A stretch of 64,000 nt of DNA from Oscillospiraceae bacterium. Lineage in GTDB: Bacteria > Bacillota > Clostridia > Oscillospirales > Oscillospiraceae. Each line of letters opens with the position of its first letter. Positions within the stretch are counted from its first letter, which is position 1. A program made the position numbers and the translations under genes. Shown here piece after piece: positions 7,746 to 20,908 of this stretch. The notes below the pieces were generated by a model. It ran no database searches. It was given only the letters and a program-made list of their open reading frames with translations, and was not told the origin of the DNA. The DNA is taken from NCBI GenBank assembly GCA_017434755.1, contig JAFRER010000003.1, forward strand, positions 248,001 to 312,000, read 5' to 3'.

Positions 7746-7760
7746 AAAGATAACAAAACG

Positions 7761-7882
7761 ATCTTCTTTCATCCAGACTGTACTGTCGGTTCCGGAATCA
7801 CACCGGATCGGCCTATCGGCTCGCGGACTAAGCTTTCACTATTACCGCCGGTAAGGAATCTCACCTTGCCCTGAAGACTGCT
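7761..7882 (-). promoter_or_regulatory. FMN riboswitch (RFN element)
   Basis: On the minus strand the leader contains the conserved RFN blocks. These are CAGGGCAAGGTGAGATTCC, then TTACCGGCGGTAATAG, then AGTCCGCGAGCC, then GGTGTGATTCCGGAACCGAC, closing with GGATGAAAGAAGAT. The 5' TCTTC and 3' GAAGA close helix P1. It senses FMN and controls only ribU here; no rib biosynthesis genes are adjacent. Confidence 0.96.
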
Positions 7883-11138: not shown

Positions 11139-12197
11139 TCACTTTCTTTGTGCCACAGACAGCTGAACGATCTTCTCGCAAAGCTCCGGATATGTGATTC
11201 CCTCCACCGCAGCAGATTTCGGGATCAGGCTGTTGGGGGTCATTCCGGGAAGAGTATTAATCTCAAGACACCAGGCATTTCCGGAATCGTCAAGAATGAA
11301 ATCCGTTCTGGAATACACGGCAAGTCCGAGCGCCTTATGGAGCCGCAAAGCCGCTTCACCCATTTTCCTCTTTTCCTCATCTGTGATAGCAGCAGGACAG
11401 ATCTCTCTCGCCCCCTGACTGCCGGACTGGTATTTGGCAACATAATCGAAGCTGGTGCCATCGGGAGGTATTATCTCAATCGGACTGAGATATCGGTCAT
11501 CAAGAACGGGCACGGTCATTTCCCTGCCGTTGATCTTTTCCTCAATGATAACACGTTTTCCGAAGTCAAGTGTTCTTTCAAGCGCATCGCGAAGCTCATT
11601 CCTTGATTCACAGATAAATACGCCTATGGAGGAGCCGCCGCCCGGTACCTTTACAACACAAGGGACAGGAAGCGTATCCGAAAGCTGATCGATCTGATCC
11701 GCAGAAAACACGATCTCGCTCCAGGACGGCGTAAGGATGCCTTCATATTCCATGATCTTCTTTGCAACGGCCTTGTTCATCGCCATGGCGCTTCCGAGAT
11801 ATCCGGAACCGGTAAACGGAATGCCCATCAGGTCTAAAACGGCCTGGATCTTTCCGTCTTCCCCGTCAGCACCGTGGAAGCCGAGAAAGACGCAATCAGC
11901 CATTGCACATACGTCAAGTACTCTGTCCCCTATTCTGGAAGGAGACTGTTTCTTCCTCGCTCTTTTGACGCTTTCAATATCCGGTGCGACAGTTTCGATG
12001 GATACATTGCCGCAAAGATCATCTCCCGAATCGAAGATCTTAAGAAGATCTCCTTCATAATCCTCCAATCCGAAGAACAGATCAACAAATATCGCCTTGT
12101 GGCCTATACTGCGCAGAGCTTTGCATACAGAAGTGCTTGTTACAAGAGAGACATGTCTTTCCGTGCTGATCCCGCCTCCCAGAACTACGATATTCAT
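11139..12197 (-). CDS. ddl: D-alanine--D-alanine ligase
   Basis: A 352-residue ATP-grasp ligase. The N-terminal GGGISTERHVSL loop, GFHGADGEDGKIQAVLD near residue 105, the FTGSGYLGSAMAMNK block, the ATP-grasp lysines and the C-terminal EINTLPGMTPNSLIP metal-binding motif are all present. It makes the D-Ala-D-Ala dipeptide for the peptidoglycan stem. The position occupied by Tyr in classical D-Ala enzymes (YTGS) is Phe here (FTGS). Phe at related positions is linked to depsipeptide or D-Lac ligases, so specificity should not be assumed from the name. The start at 12197 has GAGGTG 5 nt ahead. No van genes are nearby. Confidence 0.93.
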   Translation of the reverse strand: MNIVVLGGGISTERHVSLVTSTSVCKALRSIGHKAIFVDLFFGLEDYEGDLLKIFDSGDDLCGNVSIETVAPDIESVKRARKKQSPSRIGDRVLDVCAMADCVFLGFHGADGEDGKIQAVLDLMGIPFTGSGYLGSAMAMNKAVAKKIMEYEGILTPSWSEIVFSADQIDQLSDTLPVPCVVKVPGGGSSIGVFICESRNELRDALERTLDFGKRVIIEEKINGREMTVPVLDDRYLSPIEIIPPDGTSFDYVAKYQSGSQGAREICPAAITDEEKRKMGEAALRLHKALGLAVYSRTDFILDDSGNAWCLEINTLPGMTPNSLIPKSAAVEGITYPELCEKIVQLSVAQRK

Positions 12198-12292
12198 AAA
12201 CGCACCTCACATATAAAAATCTATGTTTTATAAGATACCACGAACTGATTATGCTAACAAGAAAAAGTTGCTGAGAAAGCGTTGTTTTCTTG

Positions 12293-12321
12293 TTGACACT
12301 GTATGGCAATACTGTTAAAAT
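12293..12321 (+). promoter_or_regulatory. strong sigma-70/SigA promoter for the RNA upstream of potA
   Basis: TTGACA (12293-12298), a 17-bp spacer and TAAAAT (12316-12321). This is one of the best promoter matches in the window. It points at a region with no protein-coding gene, with predicted start near 12328. Confidence 0.85.
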
Positions 12322-12327
12322 AAGCTG

Positions 12328-12664
12328 ACTATTGGATAAATAAGGGTCTATCCAAAGCATGATACGACCGCTCTTATTGAGCCGAGGCCACACGGACAGC
12401 CGGGTCGAATGCCGATTTACCGCTTCTATGCGGTGGCAACATCAGTTGCCTTATTGATTGAGTTAAAAGCTCAGTTTTATAAGTTGGTTACTTTATAACC
12501 GCGTGCCGGACGGCATAAAACTTGTGAAATGGTCAATAAGAGTAGGTAAGCATCTTTGCTTTAAGAGACTCTAAAACCCATAGTATAATGTTCTTTCCGT
12601 ATTACCGGGACGAGCATCCATACGGATTTACAAGGGATATGCCGCGAAGCATATCCCTTTTTAT
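12328..12664 (+). ncRNA. structured non-coding RNA / long leader ahead of potABCD (candidate raiA-type RNA)
   Basis: About 340 nt with no reading frame but dense, mutually compatible helices. They include a 5' hairpin TTGGATA/TATCCAA (12332-12355) and a perfect 10-bp closing helix, 12371-12380 with 12533-12542. Inside it are hairpins ACCGC/GCGGT (12419-12434), GGCAAC/GTTGCC (12435-12450), TGAG/CTCA (12459-12473) and GGTTA/TAACC (12486-12500). A long-range helix ATGCCG (12409-12414) with CGGCAT (12511-12516) is possible. It has its own strong promoter and ends in an intrinsic terminator 20 nt before the potA start. The raiA-motif RNA of Clostridia is the first family I would test; a leader riboswitch for potABCD is the alternative. 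Confidence 0.75.
12632..12664 (+). terminator. intrinsic terminator between the structured RNA and potA
   Basis: An 11-bp perfect stem AAGGGATATGC/GCATATCCCTT around a 6-nt loop, followed by Ts. It either ends the RNA or is a conditional attenuator of the pot operon. A possible second promoter (TTTAAG near 12560, 18-bp spacer, TATAAT at 12584-12589) lies upstream of it. Confidence 0.88.
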
Positions 12665-12684
12665 ATATATTATGACCGGAGTAT

Positions 12685-13815
12685 ATGGATATGAAGAAGA
12701 TCATCGAACTCAAAAACATCTCCAAGTCCTTTGACGGCGAAAAGGTCCTTGATAATATCAGCCTTGATATATACGACAATGAATTTCTTACGCTTCTCGG
12801 TCCTTCAGGCTGCGGAAAAACTACCACTCTCAGACTGATAGGCGGATTTGAATCACCGGACGAGGGTGATGTCATTTTTCTCGGAGAGAAGATAAATGAC
12901 GTTCCCCCTCACAAGCGCCATGTAAATACCGTTTTTCAGAAATATGCTCTTTTTCCGCATCTGAACGTTTACGAAAACGTCGCTTTCCCGCTTCGTGAGA
13001 AGAAAATGCCCAAGGATCAGATCGAGAAGAAAGTACACGAGATGCTTGATCTCGTCATGCTGTCCGGATTTGCCAAAAGGCGTGTTACCAGTTTGTCCGG
13101 AGGACAGCAGCAGCGTGTGGCCATTGCGAGAGCGCTCGTGAATGAGCCGAAGGTCCTTCTTCTTGATGAGCCTCTCGGCGCTCTCGACCTGAAGCTCCGG
13201 AAAGATATGCAGCAGGAACTGAAAAAGATCCAGAAAGCCACCGGAATAACCTTTATCTTCGTCACACATGATCAGGAAGAGGCCCTCAGCATGTCCGACA
13301 CGATAGTTGTCATGTCCGAAGGCCGGATCCAGCAGATCGGCACTCCGATCGACATTTACAATGAACCTGTCAACGCTTTCGTTGCAGATTTTATCGGAGA
13401 AAGCAACATTCTGGACGGTGTTATGCTTGAAGATCTCAAGGTCCGCTTTTCCGGCCATGTGTTCGAATGTGTGGACAAAGGATTCGGACGCGGGGAAGCT
13501 GTGGACGTTGTCGTACGCCCCGAAGATGTGGACATTGTTAAAGAGAGCGAAGGCATGCTGACCGGTATTGTCACCGGTGTTACCTTCATGGGTGTCCACT
13601 ATGAAGTCATAGTGGATATCGGCGGTTTCAAGTGGATGATCCAGACCACGGATTTTGTGGATGTCGATGAGCATATCGGCCTGTACATAGAGCCGGATGC
13701 CATCCACATTATGAAGAAGAGCGAATACTCCGGTATGTTCGGCGATTATTCCTCCTTCTCCAATGAACTGGACGAGCTCAGCATCCCTCCCGAAGAGGAC
13801 GGTGATGAAGTATGA
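12685..13815 (+). CDS. potA: spermidine/putrescine ABC transporter ATP-binding protein
   Basis: A 376-residue importer ATPase. Walker [10 protein letters not shown] is near residue 40, the signature [15 protein letters not shown] near 135, Walker [12 protein letters not shown] and the His-loop [10 protein letters not shown] follow, and a C-terminal TOBE regulatory domain runs from about 245. PotA binds the PotB/PotC permeases on the inner face of the membrane. ATG 12685 lies only 3 nt after GGAG; ATG 12691 (9-nt spacing) may be the true start. The stop overlaps potB by 4 bp. Confidence 0.95.
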
Positions 13816-14678
13816 GCAAAAAAAGCAGTCTCACCACAAAGCTCTCTCTTGCTCCCTATTCCCTCTGGGCCGCTCTGTTCATCGTTGTTCCTCTTATATT
13901 CGTTGCCTATTACGCTTTCACGGACAACAGCTTCAACTTCACCTTTGACAACATCTCGCGTTTTTTCACTTCTAAGAGCAATGTCGAAGGAAATGAAGTC
14001 CGGACGTATCTTCTCATCTTCTGGAGAAGCCTGAAGCTTGCCTTTATCAGCACCGTGATCTGTCTTCTCCTCGGCTATCCTCTTGCCTATATCATGTCCA
14101 GAGCTAAAGAGCGAAGCCAGAAGATCATGATGATCCTGATCATGATCCCGATGTGGATGAACTTTCTCATCCGGACCTATGCATGGATGACCATTCTTCA
14201 GGATACCGGTATCCTGAACGGCTTCCTTTCCCTGCTCGGTCTGAACAGGATCCACATTATCGGGACCGAAAGCGCTGTTGTGATCGGCATGGTTTACGAC
14301 TATCTCCCCTATATGGTGCTCCCCATCTATTCAATAATGGCCAAGATGGACGACAAGCTCATCGAGGCCGCGAAGGATCTCGGCTGCAACAGCGCCGGAA
14401 TCCTGAAAAGGGTGATCATTCCCCTGAGCCTTCCGGGAGTGCTGAGCGGGATCACCATGGTGCTCATCCCTTCCGTAAGTACTTTTTATATTTCGCAAAA
14501 GCTCGGCAACGGAAAGTTCTTCCTCATCGGTGACGCGATCGAAGGTCAGTTCGTAGCAAATAATCTCCATTTTGCTGCGGCCATCTCCTTCATCCTCATG
14601 GTTGTTTTGCTCGCAGTCATGGCTCTGATGAAGAAGTTCACGAACAATCGCGTATACGGAGGAGAAAGCACATTATGA
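13812..14678 (+). CDS. potB: spermidine/putrescine ABC transporter permease
   Basis: A 288-residue permease with six hydrophobic segments. It carries the EAA-loop signature that contacts the ATPase ([22 protein letters not shown]). It starts within the potA stop (ATGA) and its own stop overlaps potC, so the four genes form one translationally coupled unit. PotB and PotC form the heterodimeric channel for polyamines. Confidence 0.94.
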
Positions 14679-15505
14679 AAACATCCTCCAAAATCTATAC
14701 TGTTCTTATTTTCATATTTCTGTTTGCTCCTATCGCGATCCTTCTTGTATTCTCATTCAATGAGGCAAAAAGCCTTTCCGTCTTTTCCGGTTTTTCTTTA
14801 CGCTGGTATAAGGAACTCCTGAATGACGAGCCGACACTCCAGAGCGTCCGGAATACGCTCCTGCTTGCAGTCAGCGCAATGGTCGTCAGTACGGTTATGG
14901 GAACGGCCGCTTCAGTCGGGATCCTGCATCTGAGGAACAAGGCATTCAAGGCAGCTCTCAACACGGCAACCGATATTCCCATGACGAATCCGGATATCAT
15001 CACGGGCATTTCCCTGATGCTTATGTTCGTATTTGCCGGAAGGCTATTCGGTCTTGCAAACTCCCTCAGTTTCTGGACCATGCTGATCGCGCATATCACC
15101 TTCTGTCTGCCTTATGTGATCCTTCAGGTGCTCCCAAGACTGCGACAGATGGATCCGGCCCTCCCGGAAGCCGCGCAGGATCTTGGCTGCACGCCTTTCA
15201 AGGCGTTCTTCAAAGTGACGATCCATGAGATCATGCCCGGCATAATCACCGGCGCGATCATGGCTTTCACCATGAGCCTCGATGATTTCGTTATCAGTTA
15301 CTTTACTTCGGGAGCAGGTTTCCAGACCCTTCCGATACGCATATACAATATGACAAAGAAAACCGTAACGCCTAAAATGTATGCCCTTGCAACCATCATT
15401 TTCTTTGTAATTCTCACGTTGCTGCTCATCAGCAACCTGACAGACCGTGATCCGGACAGCCCTGCTCCGGAAAGGAAAAAGCATAAAGGAGGAAAAATGA
15501 AATGA
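14675..15505 (+). CDS. potC: spermidine/putrescine ABC transporter permease
   Basis: A 276-residue permease with six membrane segments. The EAA-loop block LPEAAQDLGCTPFKAFFKV precedes the ...MAFTMSLDDFVISYF segment, which is highly typical of PotC. The C-terminus is a Lys-rich cytoplasmic tail. It is overlapped by 4 bp on both sides. Confidence 0.94.
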   Translation: MKTSSKIYTVLIFIFLFAPIAILLVFSFNEAKSLSVFSGFSLRWYKELLNDEPTLQSVRNTLLLAVSAMVVSTVMGTAASVGILHLRNKAFKAALNTATDIPMTNPDIITGISLMLMFVFAGRLFGLANSLSFWTMLIAHITFCLPYVILQVLPRLRQMDPALPEAAQDLGCTPFKAFFKVTIHEIMPGIITGAIMAFTMSLDDFVISYFTSGAGFQTLPIRIYNMTKKTVTPKMYALATIIFFVILTLLLISNLTDRDPDSPAPERKKHKGGKMK

Positions 15506-16611
15506 AAAAGCACATTGCACTTATCCTGGCGGTCCTCTTTATTCTGTCAGCCCTCAGCGGCTGCGGCTCAAAGGAAGGCACTCTCACCCTGAACGTTTAC
15601 AACTGGGGTGAATACATTTCCGACGGCAGCGAAGGCAGCTACGATACCATTAAAGAATTTGAAAACTGGTATAAAGAAACCTATGGCCAGAAAGTAAAGG
15701 TTAACTATGATACATTTGCCTCCAATGAGGATATGTACTCCAAGCTTTCATCCGGTGCGGTGAGCTATGATGTGATCATTCCGTCCGATTACATGATCGC
15801 CCGCATGTCCTCCGAAGGTATGCTGCTTCCTCTCGATTTCGGCAACATCCCGAACTATTCTCATGTTCCGGAGAGCTTTAAAGGGCTTTACTATGATCCG
15901 GACAACAAATACACCGTCCCCTATGCATACGGGATCGTCGGGATCATCTATAATGCCAATGAGGTGGATGAAGCTGATACGGGGAGCTGGGACCTTCTGT
16001 GGAATGAAAAGTATGCGGGAAAGATTGTCCAGTTCAACAATTCGCGCGATGCTTTCGGAACTGCCATGTACAAGCTCGGTCTTGATGTCAACAGCACGGA
16101 CAAGACCGTTTGGGACAAGGCCTTCGACGAGCTCAGCGCACAGCGCCCCATCGTCTACAGTTATGTTATGGATGAGATCTACAACATGATGGAATCCGGA
16201 GAATCCGCTATCGGCGCCTATTACGCCGGAGACTACTTCACCATGATCGATGCGCAGGCCGACACGGTCGATCTCCGTTTCTACTATCCCGATCCCACTA
16301 ACTACTATATTGACGCGATGTGCATTCCCTCCTGCTGCCAAAACAAGGAACTGGCCGAAATATTCATAAACTTCATGCTCAGCAGAGATGCCGCCGTAGC
16401 AAATGCGGAATATACCTATTATGCAACTCCGAACGATCTGGTGTATAACGACCCCGAATACCTTGACGATCTCGGTGAGGACACCATAGCCATTCTTTAT
16501 CCCGAAATGGACGATTTCTCCGCACAGTACAACAAATATGCCTATCGGAACCTGTCCGCTGATATGCTCGACTATATAAACAGCCTCTGGGAAAACGTGA
16601 AGGTAAACTGA
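15502..16611 (+). CDS. potD: spermidine/putrescine-binding lipoprotein
   Basis: A 369-residue extracellular solute-binding protein. A signal peptide ends in the lipobox ALSGC-G. The mature start LNVYNWGEYIS, then FEKWY-like FENWYKETYG, DVIIPSDYMIARM and the central SGESAIGAYYAGDY block are PotD hallmarks; the acidic and aromatic residues would cradle the polyamine. It is anchored outside the cell and delivers ligand to PotBC. Last gene of the operon, followed by a large hairpin. Confidence 0.95.
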   Translation: MKKHIALILAVLFILSALSGCGSKEGTLTLNVYNWGEYISDGSEGSYDTIKEFENWYKETYGQKVKVNYDTFASNEDMYSKLSSGAVSYDVIIPSDYMIARMSSEGMLLPLDFGNIPNYSHVPESFKGLYYDPDNKYTVPYAYGIVGIIYNANEVDEADTGSWDLLWNEKYAGKIVQFNNSRDAFGTAMYKLGLDVNSTDKTVWDKAFDELSAQRPIVYSYVMDEIYNMMESGESAIGAYYAGDYFTMIDAQADTVDLRFYYPDPTNYYIDAMCIPSCCQNKELAEIFINFMLSRDAAVANAEYTYYATPNDLVYNDPEYLDDLGEDTIAILYPEMDDFSAQYNKYAYRNLSADMLDYINSLWENVKVN

Positions 16612-20566: not shown

Positions 20567-20643
20567 GGGAGCATAGCTCAGCTGGTTAGAGCACCTGCCT
20601 TACAAGCAGGGGGTCACTGGTTCGAGTCCAGTTGTTCCCACCA
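20567..20643 (+). tRNA. tRNA-Val (anticodon TAC)
   Basis: A 77-nt cloverleaf with encoded CCA. Anticodon arm CCTGC-CTTACAA-GCAGG; T-arm with GGTTCGAGTCC; acceptor GGGAGCA/TGTTCCC. Confidence 0.97.
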
Positions 20644-20649
20644 ATATCC

Positions 20650-20725
<76 letters not shown>

Positions 20726-20728
20726 TTT

Positions 20729-20804
20729 GCGGCTTTAGCTCATCCGGTAGAGCGCCACCTTGCCAAGGTGGAGGTAGCGAGTTCGAGCCTCGTAAGCCGC
20801 TCCA
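20729..20804 (+). tRNA. tRNA-Gly (anticodon GCC)
   Basis: A 76-nt cloverleaf with encoded CCA. Anticodon arm CCACC-TTGCCAA-GGTGG gives GCC. Three bases after tRNA-Phe. Confidence 0.97.
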
Positions 20805-20833
20805 TTTTTATACAGGCTCTGTCCTGTATATCC

Positions 20834-20908
20834 GGCGCCATAGCCAAGTGGTAAGGCAGCGGACTGCAAATCCGCGATTCCCCAGTTCGAGTCTGGGTGG
20901 CGCCTCCA
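20834..20908 (+). tRNA. tRNA-Cys (anticodon GCA)
   Basis: A 75-nt cloverleaf with encoded CCA. Anticodon arm CGGACTGCAAATCCG gives GCA; acceptor GGCGCCA with GGCGCC. Last tRNA of the four-gene cluster. Confidence 0.97.

Follow-up and report, generated by a model that had tools for sequence, protein, structure and literature searches.

Between a strong promoter and the polyamine-uptake operon potABCD, the window (the whole 64,000-nucleotide stretch of DNA analysed) encodes a highly structured RNA, and the question it raises is whether this RNA acts on its own or controls the genes behind it. The initial annotation had offered two readings: an independent noncoding RNA, with the raiA motif as the first comparison, or a riboswitch-like leader tuning polyamine uptake. 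The outline it drew of the locus, a promoter, a stretch without a reading frame and a terminator ahead of potA, was confirmed. A sigma-70-type promoter, TTGACA-17-TAAAAT, lies at 12293-12321 on the plus strand, with 11 of 12 consensus positions and a TG ahead of the second (-10) hexamer. The leader domain, including an outer helix (P0), occupies 12328-12584 (+) around a conserved core at about 12356-12572, and an intrinsic terminator (12632-12667, +; -16.1 kcal/mol) joins an 11-bp stem at 12632-12659, whose end is 25 nt short of the potA ATG (12685), to a U-rich tail. No reading frame inside the RNA is conserved among 129 homologues, and a search of these for a leader peptide found none: a closed open reading frame of at least 10 codons preceded by a Shine-Dalgarno sequence occurs in 12 of the 129, with a start column common to at most 2. 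By Pfam and NCBIfam, potABCD spans 12685-16611. Its first gene (12685-13815, +) encodes the spermidine/putrescine ABC transporter ATPase PotA, scoring above cutoff with both NF043075 and TIGR01187; potB (13812-14678, +), potC (14675-15505, +) and potD (15502-16611, +) are named from their best NCBIfam matches, which are PotB, PotC together with a fused PotC-like protein, and PotD, all below the model cutoffs. Upstream of the leader, a D-Ala-D-Ala-ligase-like gene (11139-12197, minus strand) points away from it. Elsewhere, the window carries an FMN riboswitch aptamer (7757-7882, -; 121 bits), a tmRNA gene (2218-2569, +) and a cluster of four tRNA genes (20567-20905, +).

The covariance-model search against Rfam proposed in the initial annotation matched the leader to RF02440 and not to raiA. 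RF02440, SpF59_sRNA (ldcC RNA), was the sole family above cutoff (62.4 bits against a cutoff of 37.2), and the 51 nt it covers, 12365-12415 (+), are the only stretch known to Rfam. This clear match indicates that the pot leader and SpF59 are the same RNA. Homologues were gathered by RNA model or DNA pattern alone, blind to the genes around them. The RF02440 model matches 59 of 245 genomes of the order, 18 of 398 in the phylum and, among 14 control genomes, that of Lactococcus lactis alone. A 28-base pattern retrieved at least 119 stretches from genome contigs; among the matches listed are Paenibacillus, Neobacillus, Bacillus, Cohnella, Ruminococcus and Oscillospiraceae, together with one Spirochaetes and one Synergistaceae metagenome bin, and a search of viral contigs with one exact pattern found no copies. 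Comparison of the homologues showed that the conserved stretch is about 220 nt long (12356-12572), not 54. A model of the full domain (R1), from which helix P8b was left out because it was misaligned in the underlying alignment A2, matches 20 of the 398 genomes of the phylum, namely the 18 found with RF02440 and two more, as well as 27 of 31 genomes of the window's genus, including 11 of 11 of high quality.

These homologues are tied to polyamine genes. Some contigs were duplicated between collections, so counts were redone on distinct sequences: 165 loci merged to 161, and leaving out 11 with less than 800 nt downstream gave 150 that could be evaluated. In 149 of these 150 (153 of 154 before duplicates were removed), a polyamine gene lies no more than 3.5 kb downstream, on the same strand. 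Neighbours were assigned by clustering and by tblastn, with the neighbours of the same loci and the window's PotD as queries; a count by longest open reading frame had left 7 loci without a polyamine gene, and tblastn found one in 6 of them. The single remaining exception (L031) precedes an M28-type peptidase. Upstream, by comparison, up to 5 kb on either strand (1.5 kb for some loci) yielded only 9 PotA-type hits. The nearest downstream gene encodes carboxy(nor)spermidine dehydrogenase in 48 cases, PotA in 46, SpeD in 40 and an Orn/Lys/Arg decarboxylase in 15; NspC, PotBCD, SpeE and agmatinase also occur downstream. Names were assigned from one representative per cluster. The NspC, SpeD, SpeE and agmatinase representatives score above NCBIfam cutoffs, and the decarboxylase representative matches Pfam PF01276 at 236 bits, with NCBIfam matches far below cutoff. 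That of the dehydrogenase has Pfam saccharopine-dehydrogenase domains and reaches 411.7 of the 800 bits required for NCBIfam carboxynorspermidine synthase, so its label rests on the best match. The full-domain model gave the same picture: polyamine genes lie downstream in all 20 matched genomes of the phylum and at all 39 loci kept from the R1 searches, as well as at 8 fetched for the remaining genus matches, and all 28 genus loci (20 kept and 8 fetched) precede pot genes.

The RNA also has a conserved fold. In the window, 12327-12560 folds at -78.7 kcal/mol, compared to a shuffle mean of -58.5 (z = -4.5; 0 of 200 shuffles equally stable). Covariation was examined in 129 homologues with a recognisable 3' end and in alignment A2, which holds 28 of 37 picked sequences; RNAalifold on a 72-row alignment (A1) returned only 15 pairs and had ragged ends, and trimmed alignments were used instead. 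The roughly 220 nt share a covarying fold. On the 28 sequences, 96.7% of the cells of the nested structure are paired, against 33-46% when the structure is slid along the alignment, and changes on both sides of a pair number 80, against 22.4 in shuffles (0 of 500). The strongest mutual information among the 129 sequences (effective number 51) falls on helices P2 and P3, and P5 is one of those ranking just below; high values also occur at some unpaired columns (for example, 12361/12407), a sign of shared ancestry.

The P2-P4 arm (all helices are on the plus strand) consists of P2 (12365-12369/12403-12407; 98% paired, covariation at 12365/12407), P3 (12370-12373/12379-12382; 94% paired, 162 both-side changes, all pairs covarying) and the almost invariant P4 (12393-12395/12400-12402; 386 of 387 cells paired). 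An extra hairpin, ACCGC/GCGGU (12419-12434), read from the sequences, follows in some homologues only, and hairpin P5 (12435-12440/12445-12450; 98% paired, 39 both-side changes) comes next. The long-range helix P10, UUAUUGA/UCAAUAA (12451-12457/12533-12539; 99% paired, 2 both-changed cells), closes a domain that contains hairpin P6 (12459-12473), P7 (12475-12485/12519-12529; 98% paired, 1 both-changed cell), P8 (12486-12489/12497-12500; 85% paired on 28 sequences) and P8b (12503-12507/12512-12516; 84% paired, 46 both-side changes). P9, AGAGU/ACUCU (12539-12543/12568-12572; 99% paired, 4 both-changed cells), shares base 12539 with P10. P7, P9 and P10 vary so little that covariation is hardly informative about them. 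The P9 loop holds the 3' strand of P1 (about 12552-12560), which pairs as a pseudoknot with 12356-12363, imperfectly in the window itself. P1 and P0 (ACUAU/AUAGU, 12328-12332 with 12580-12584, read from the sequence) were assessed by duplex energies on 104 distinct of 126 sequences. For P1, own strands average -9.40 kcal/mol and strands swapped between loci -7.17 (0 of 5000 permutations), a difference of 2.2 against 0.5 and 0.3 in controls; for P0, the values are -7.70 and -5.61, a difference of 2.1 against 0.1 and 0.4 for reversed and shuffled controls. Pairing of the 5' leader with the 3' strand of P9 was weak (-5.13 versus -4.96 kcal/mol; 18 of 5000) and is not claimed.

Of the structure first drawn for this RNA, the internal hairpins recur in homologues (P3, P4, P5, P6, P8 and P8b), and comparative pairing counts led us to reject two long-range helices. 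The 10-bp closing helix 12371-12380/12533-12542 is present in this sequence but is not conserved (55% paired with 2 covarying cells among 129 homologues; 54% paired on the 28-sequence alignment, no better than shuffles); its strands have conserved partners elsewhere, 12370-12373 with 12379-12382 and 12533-12539 with 12451-12457. The possible 6-bp cross-branch helix 12409-12414/12511-12516 did not hold up either (63% paired, 1 covarying cell); its 3' strand forms the 3' arm of P8b and contributes to the antiterminator described below. What remains is a conserved aptamer-like fold in the leaders of genes of one metabolite, as expected of a riboswitch.

Several relatives depart from this consensus. 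In two of the same genus, L208 (about 1822-2281, -) and L209 (2507-2875, +), a large insertion, apparently in the P6 loop, gives rise to two partial model hits; these were at first candidates for tandem copies and are read instead as one RNA with an insertion, so that P6 seems able to hold extra sequence. In L213 (2308-2436, -), also a pot leader of this genus, 5 nt stand in place of 40 model positions of the P2-P4 arm and the rest is conserved, possibly marking a variant or a degenerate copy. Four sequences of alignment A1 (L073, L089, L128 and L131) are off consensus in their 3' part, perhaps through insertions or assembly breaks.

Downstream of the fold, 124 of 131 distinct loci carry a terminator-like hairpin at most 200 nt from P9; none was detected in the other 7. 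The fold-based finder used here also reported hairpins in 41 of 402 plain-letter shuffles and on 30 of 134 antisense strands (controls on all 134 loci); a version demanding perfect stems detected 15 of 115 (2.4% in shuffles, 1 in antisense) and missed the window's own. The stretch searched could run past the gene start: where a gene hit was present (122 distinct loci), 106 hairpins end ahead of the nearest hit and 16 beyond it.

The 5' arm of the terminator is complementary to the body of the RNA. In the window, the 5' half of a putative antiterminator (12511-12528, +) consists of CGGCAUA (12511-12517) and CUUGUGAA (12521-12528), which belong to the 3' strands of P8b and P7, and its 3' half (12627-12644, +), UUUACAAG and UAUGCCG, overlaps the terminator 5' arm. 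The duplex formed by CGGCAUA/UAUGCCG and CUUGUGAA/UUUACAAG is predicted at -19.7 kcal/mol, compared to -16.1 for the terminator. In 78% of 126 loci, the best partner of the terminator arm is found 45-59 nt ahead of the end of P9, at the P8b 3' arm and P7 3' strand; arms swapped in from other loci find the same place in 52%. Mean duplex energies are -15.8 kcal/mol for own arms, -13.5 for swapped, -10.0 for reversed and -7.8 for shuffled arms. The gain of own over swapped arms is 2.29 kcal/mol (0 of 2000; a first swap test gave 0 of 5000 permutations), but reversed arms keep about half of it (1.12 kcal/mol; shuffled arms none), so this gain is partly non-specific, and for the variable part of the arm alone it is 1.21 versus 0.87 kcal/mol in the control. 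Co-variation of the antiterminator is thus not clean and only partly above control; as the swap test is not specific, the case for this element rests on the strength and place of the pairing. At the level of sequence complementarity, the expression platform and the conserved fold are mutually exclusive. The equilibrium fold of the whole leader prefers the terminator state (-117 versus -99 kcal/mol, pseudoknots ignored), so the ON state would need kinetic control, and the choice is presumably made during transcription.

Taken together, sequence comparison displays a conserved fold, linkage to polyamine genes, a terminator-like hairpin and complementary switch strands. The RNA is real, and a cis-acting role as the 5' leader of the potABCD mRNA explains it best. 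The earlier proposal of a riboswitch-like leader tuning polyamine uptake gains good support from the 149 of 150 linked loci, the fold, the terminator and the complementary antiterminator strand. We infer the ligand, its direct binding and the direction of control: the leader is quite probably a polyamine-sensing OFF riboswitch, with spermidine the probable ligand, acting by transcription termination on potABCD. The fold of about 220 nt (12356-12572, extending to 12328-12584 with P0; helices P0-P10 and the P1/P9 pseudoknot) would bind the polyamine; P7 and P8b would then stay closed, the hairpin at 12632-12659 would form and transcription would stop before potA. When polyamine is scarce, 12511-12528 would pair with 12627-12644, the terminator would be blocked and the uptake operon transcribed. 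Spermidine is the point at which the products of the SpeD/SpeE route and of the carboxyspermidine route converge with the cargo of PotABCD. The window's own genome has no PF01276 decarboxylase and a SpeE-like hit only below cutoff, so uptake may be its main source of polyamines.

The linkage and the terminator/antiterminator anatomy would fit any signal of polyamine status, and a cis-acting attenuator of polyamine genes could sense something else, be it a regulatory protein or one of the precursors and by-products, for example putrescine, agmatine, decarboxylated SAM or methylthioadenosine. We regard this as a minority possibility. The same RNA stands ahead of SpeD operons, of carboxyspermidine-type operons and of importers, which makes a pathway-specific intermediate unlikely, and the own genome is without PF01276, the only decarboxylase family looked for. 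For a protein-binding leader, moreover, a pseudoknotted fold of about 220 nt would be large. Far less probable is an independent trans-acting sRNA, as the label SpF59_sRNA and the Rfam type "Gene; sRNA" imply, released by the terminator and with the pot genes as mere neighbours. The strong promoter and the terminator agree with this, although an attenuator should likewise produce a discrete terminated RNA. Against it stand the polyamine genes, of four kinds, that follow 149 of the 150 distinct evaluable copies on the same strand, and the complementarity between terminator arm and RNA body, which clearly exceeds that of reversed and shuffled controls. The raiA-motif reading (ModT RNA, RF03072), prompted by similar length and a likewise highly structured RNA of Bacillota, can be dismissed as next to impossible: 12200-12800 gives no RF03072 match up to E 10, the model matches 0 of 30 relatives, and the gene context differs. 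That absence is meaningful because the same model, as a positive control, found raiA in 7 of 61 genomes of the phylum (57-186 bits), with cmscan re-finding it in three of the 7 loci at 179.5-186 bits. The neighbours reported for raiA RNA in passages of PMC11706538 are comFC and raiA genes.

Among known RNAs, the putative polyamine riboswitch is closest to RF02440, which clearly matches 12365-12415 and whose label names ldcC, a lysine decarboxylase gene that we take to adjoin polyamine genes in Streptococcus. RF02440 differs in having 54 model positions against about 220 conserved nt, in being typed as an sRNA gene and in a model without P5-P10, antiterminator or terminator. The label "ldcC RNA" shows that part of the polyamine link had been noticed earlier and hints that a description may exist elsewhere; among open-licence papers, no title or abstract opening describes the RNA as a polyamine leader, and the polyamine terms searched for are absent from the main text of PMC11109978. 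The speF RNA motif of alphaproteobacteria likewise stands ahead of a polyamine-related gene, that of a polyamine-synthesis decarboxylase in passages of PMC11477304, but belongs to another phylum and, up to E 10, is absent from the Rfam families that match the leader.

The spermidine riboswitch already described, a variant of SAM-I (Salvail et al. 2023; PMC10853860), shares an association with speE, speB, speD and ldcC. In passages of that report, spermidine raises transcription termination, the riboswitch is rare and narrowly distributed, and no definitive spermidine riboswitch had been shown before. It is a different RNA from the pot leader, which has a different fold and no Rfam SAM-family match up to E 10, the lack of a SAM-I fold being judged from the Rfam SAM families. 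The same passages consider further polyamine riboswitch classes certain to remain undiscovered (PMC10853860). The pot leader is a candidate of broad distribution whose expression platform can be tested directly; should it bind polyamines, it would account for feedback regulation of both the uptake and the synthesis of polyamines in many Bacillota, including gut bacteria, and would add a new RNA sensor for one of the cell's major polycations. On balance, we lean towards a widespread second class of spermidine/polyamine riboswitch, structurally unrelated to the SAM-I variant, that would comprise about 220 nt with a pseudoknot, extend across Bacillota from Paenibacillus and Neobacillus to Oscillospiraceae, govern uptake and two spermidine synthesis routes by transcription termination, and have been hidden in Rfam as a 54-nt streptococcal sRNA.
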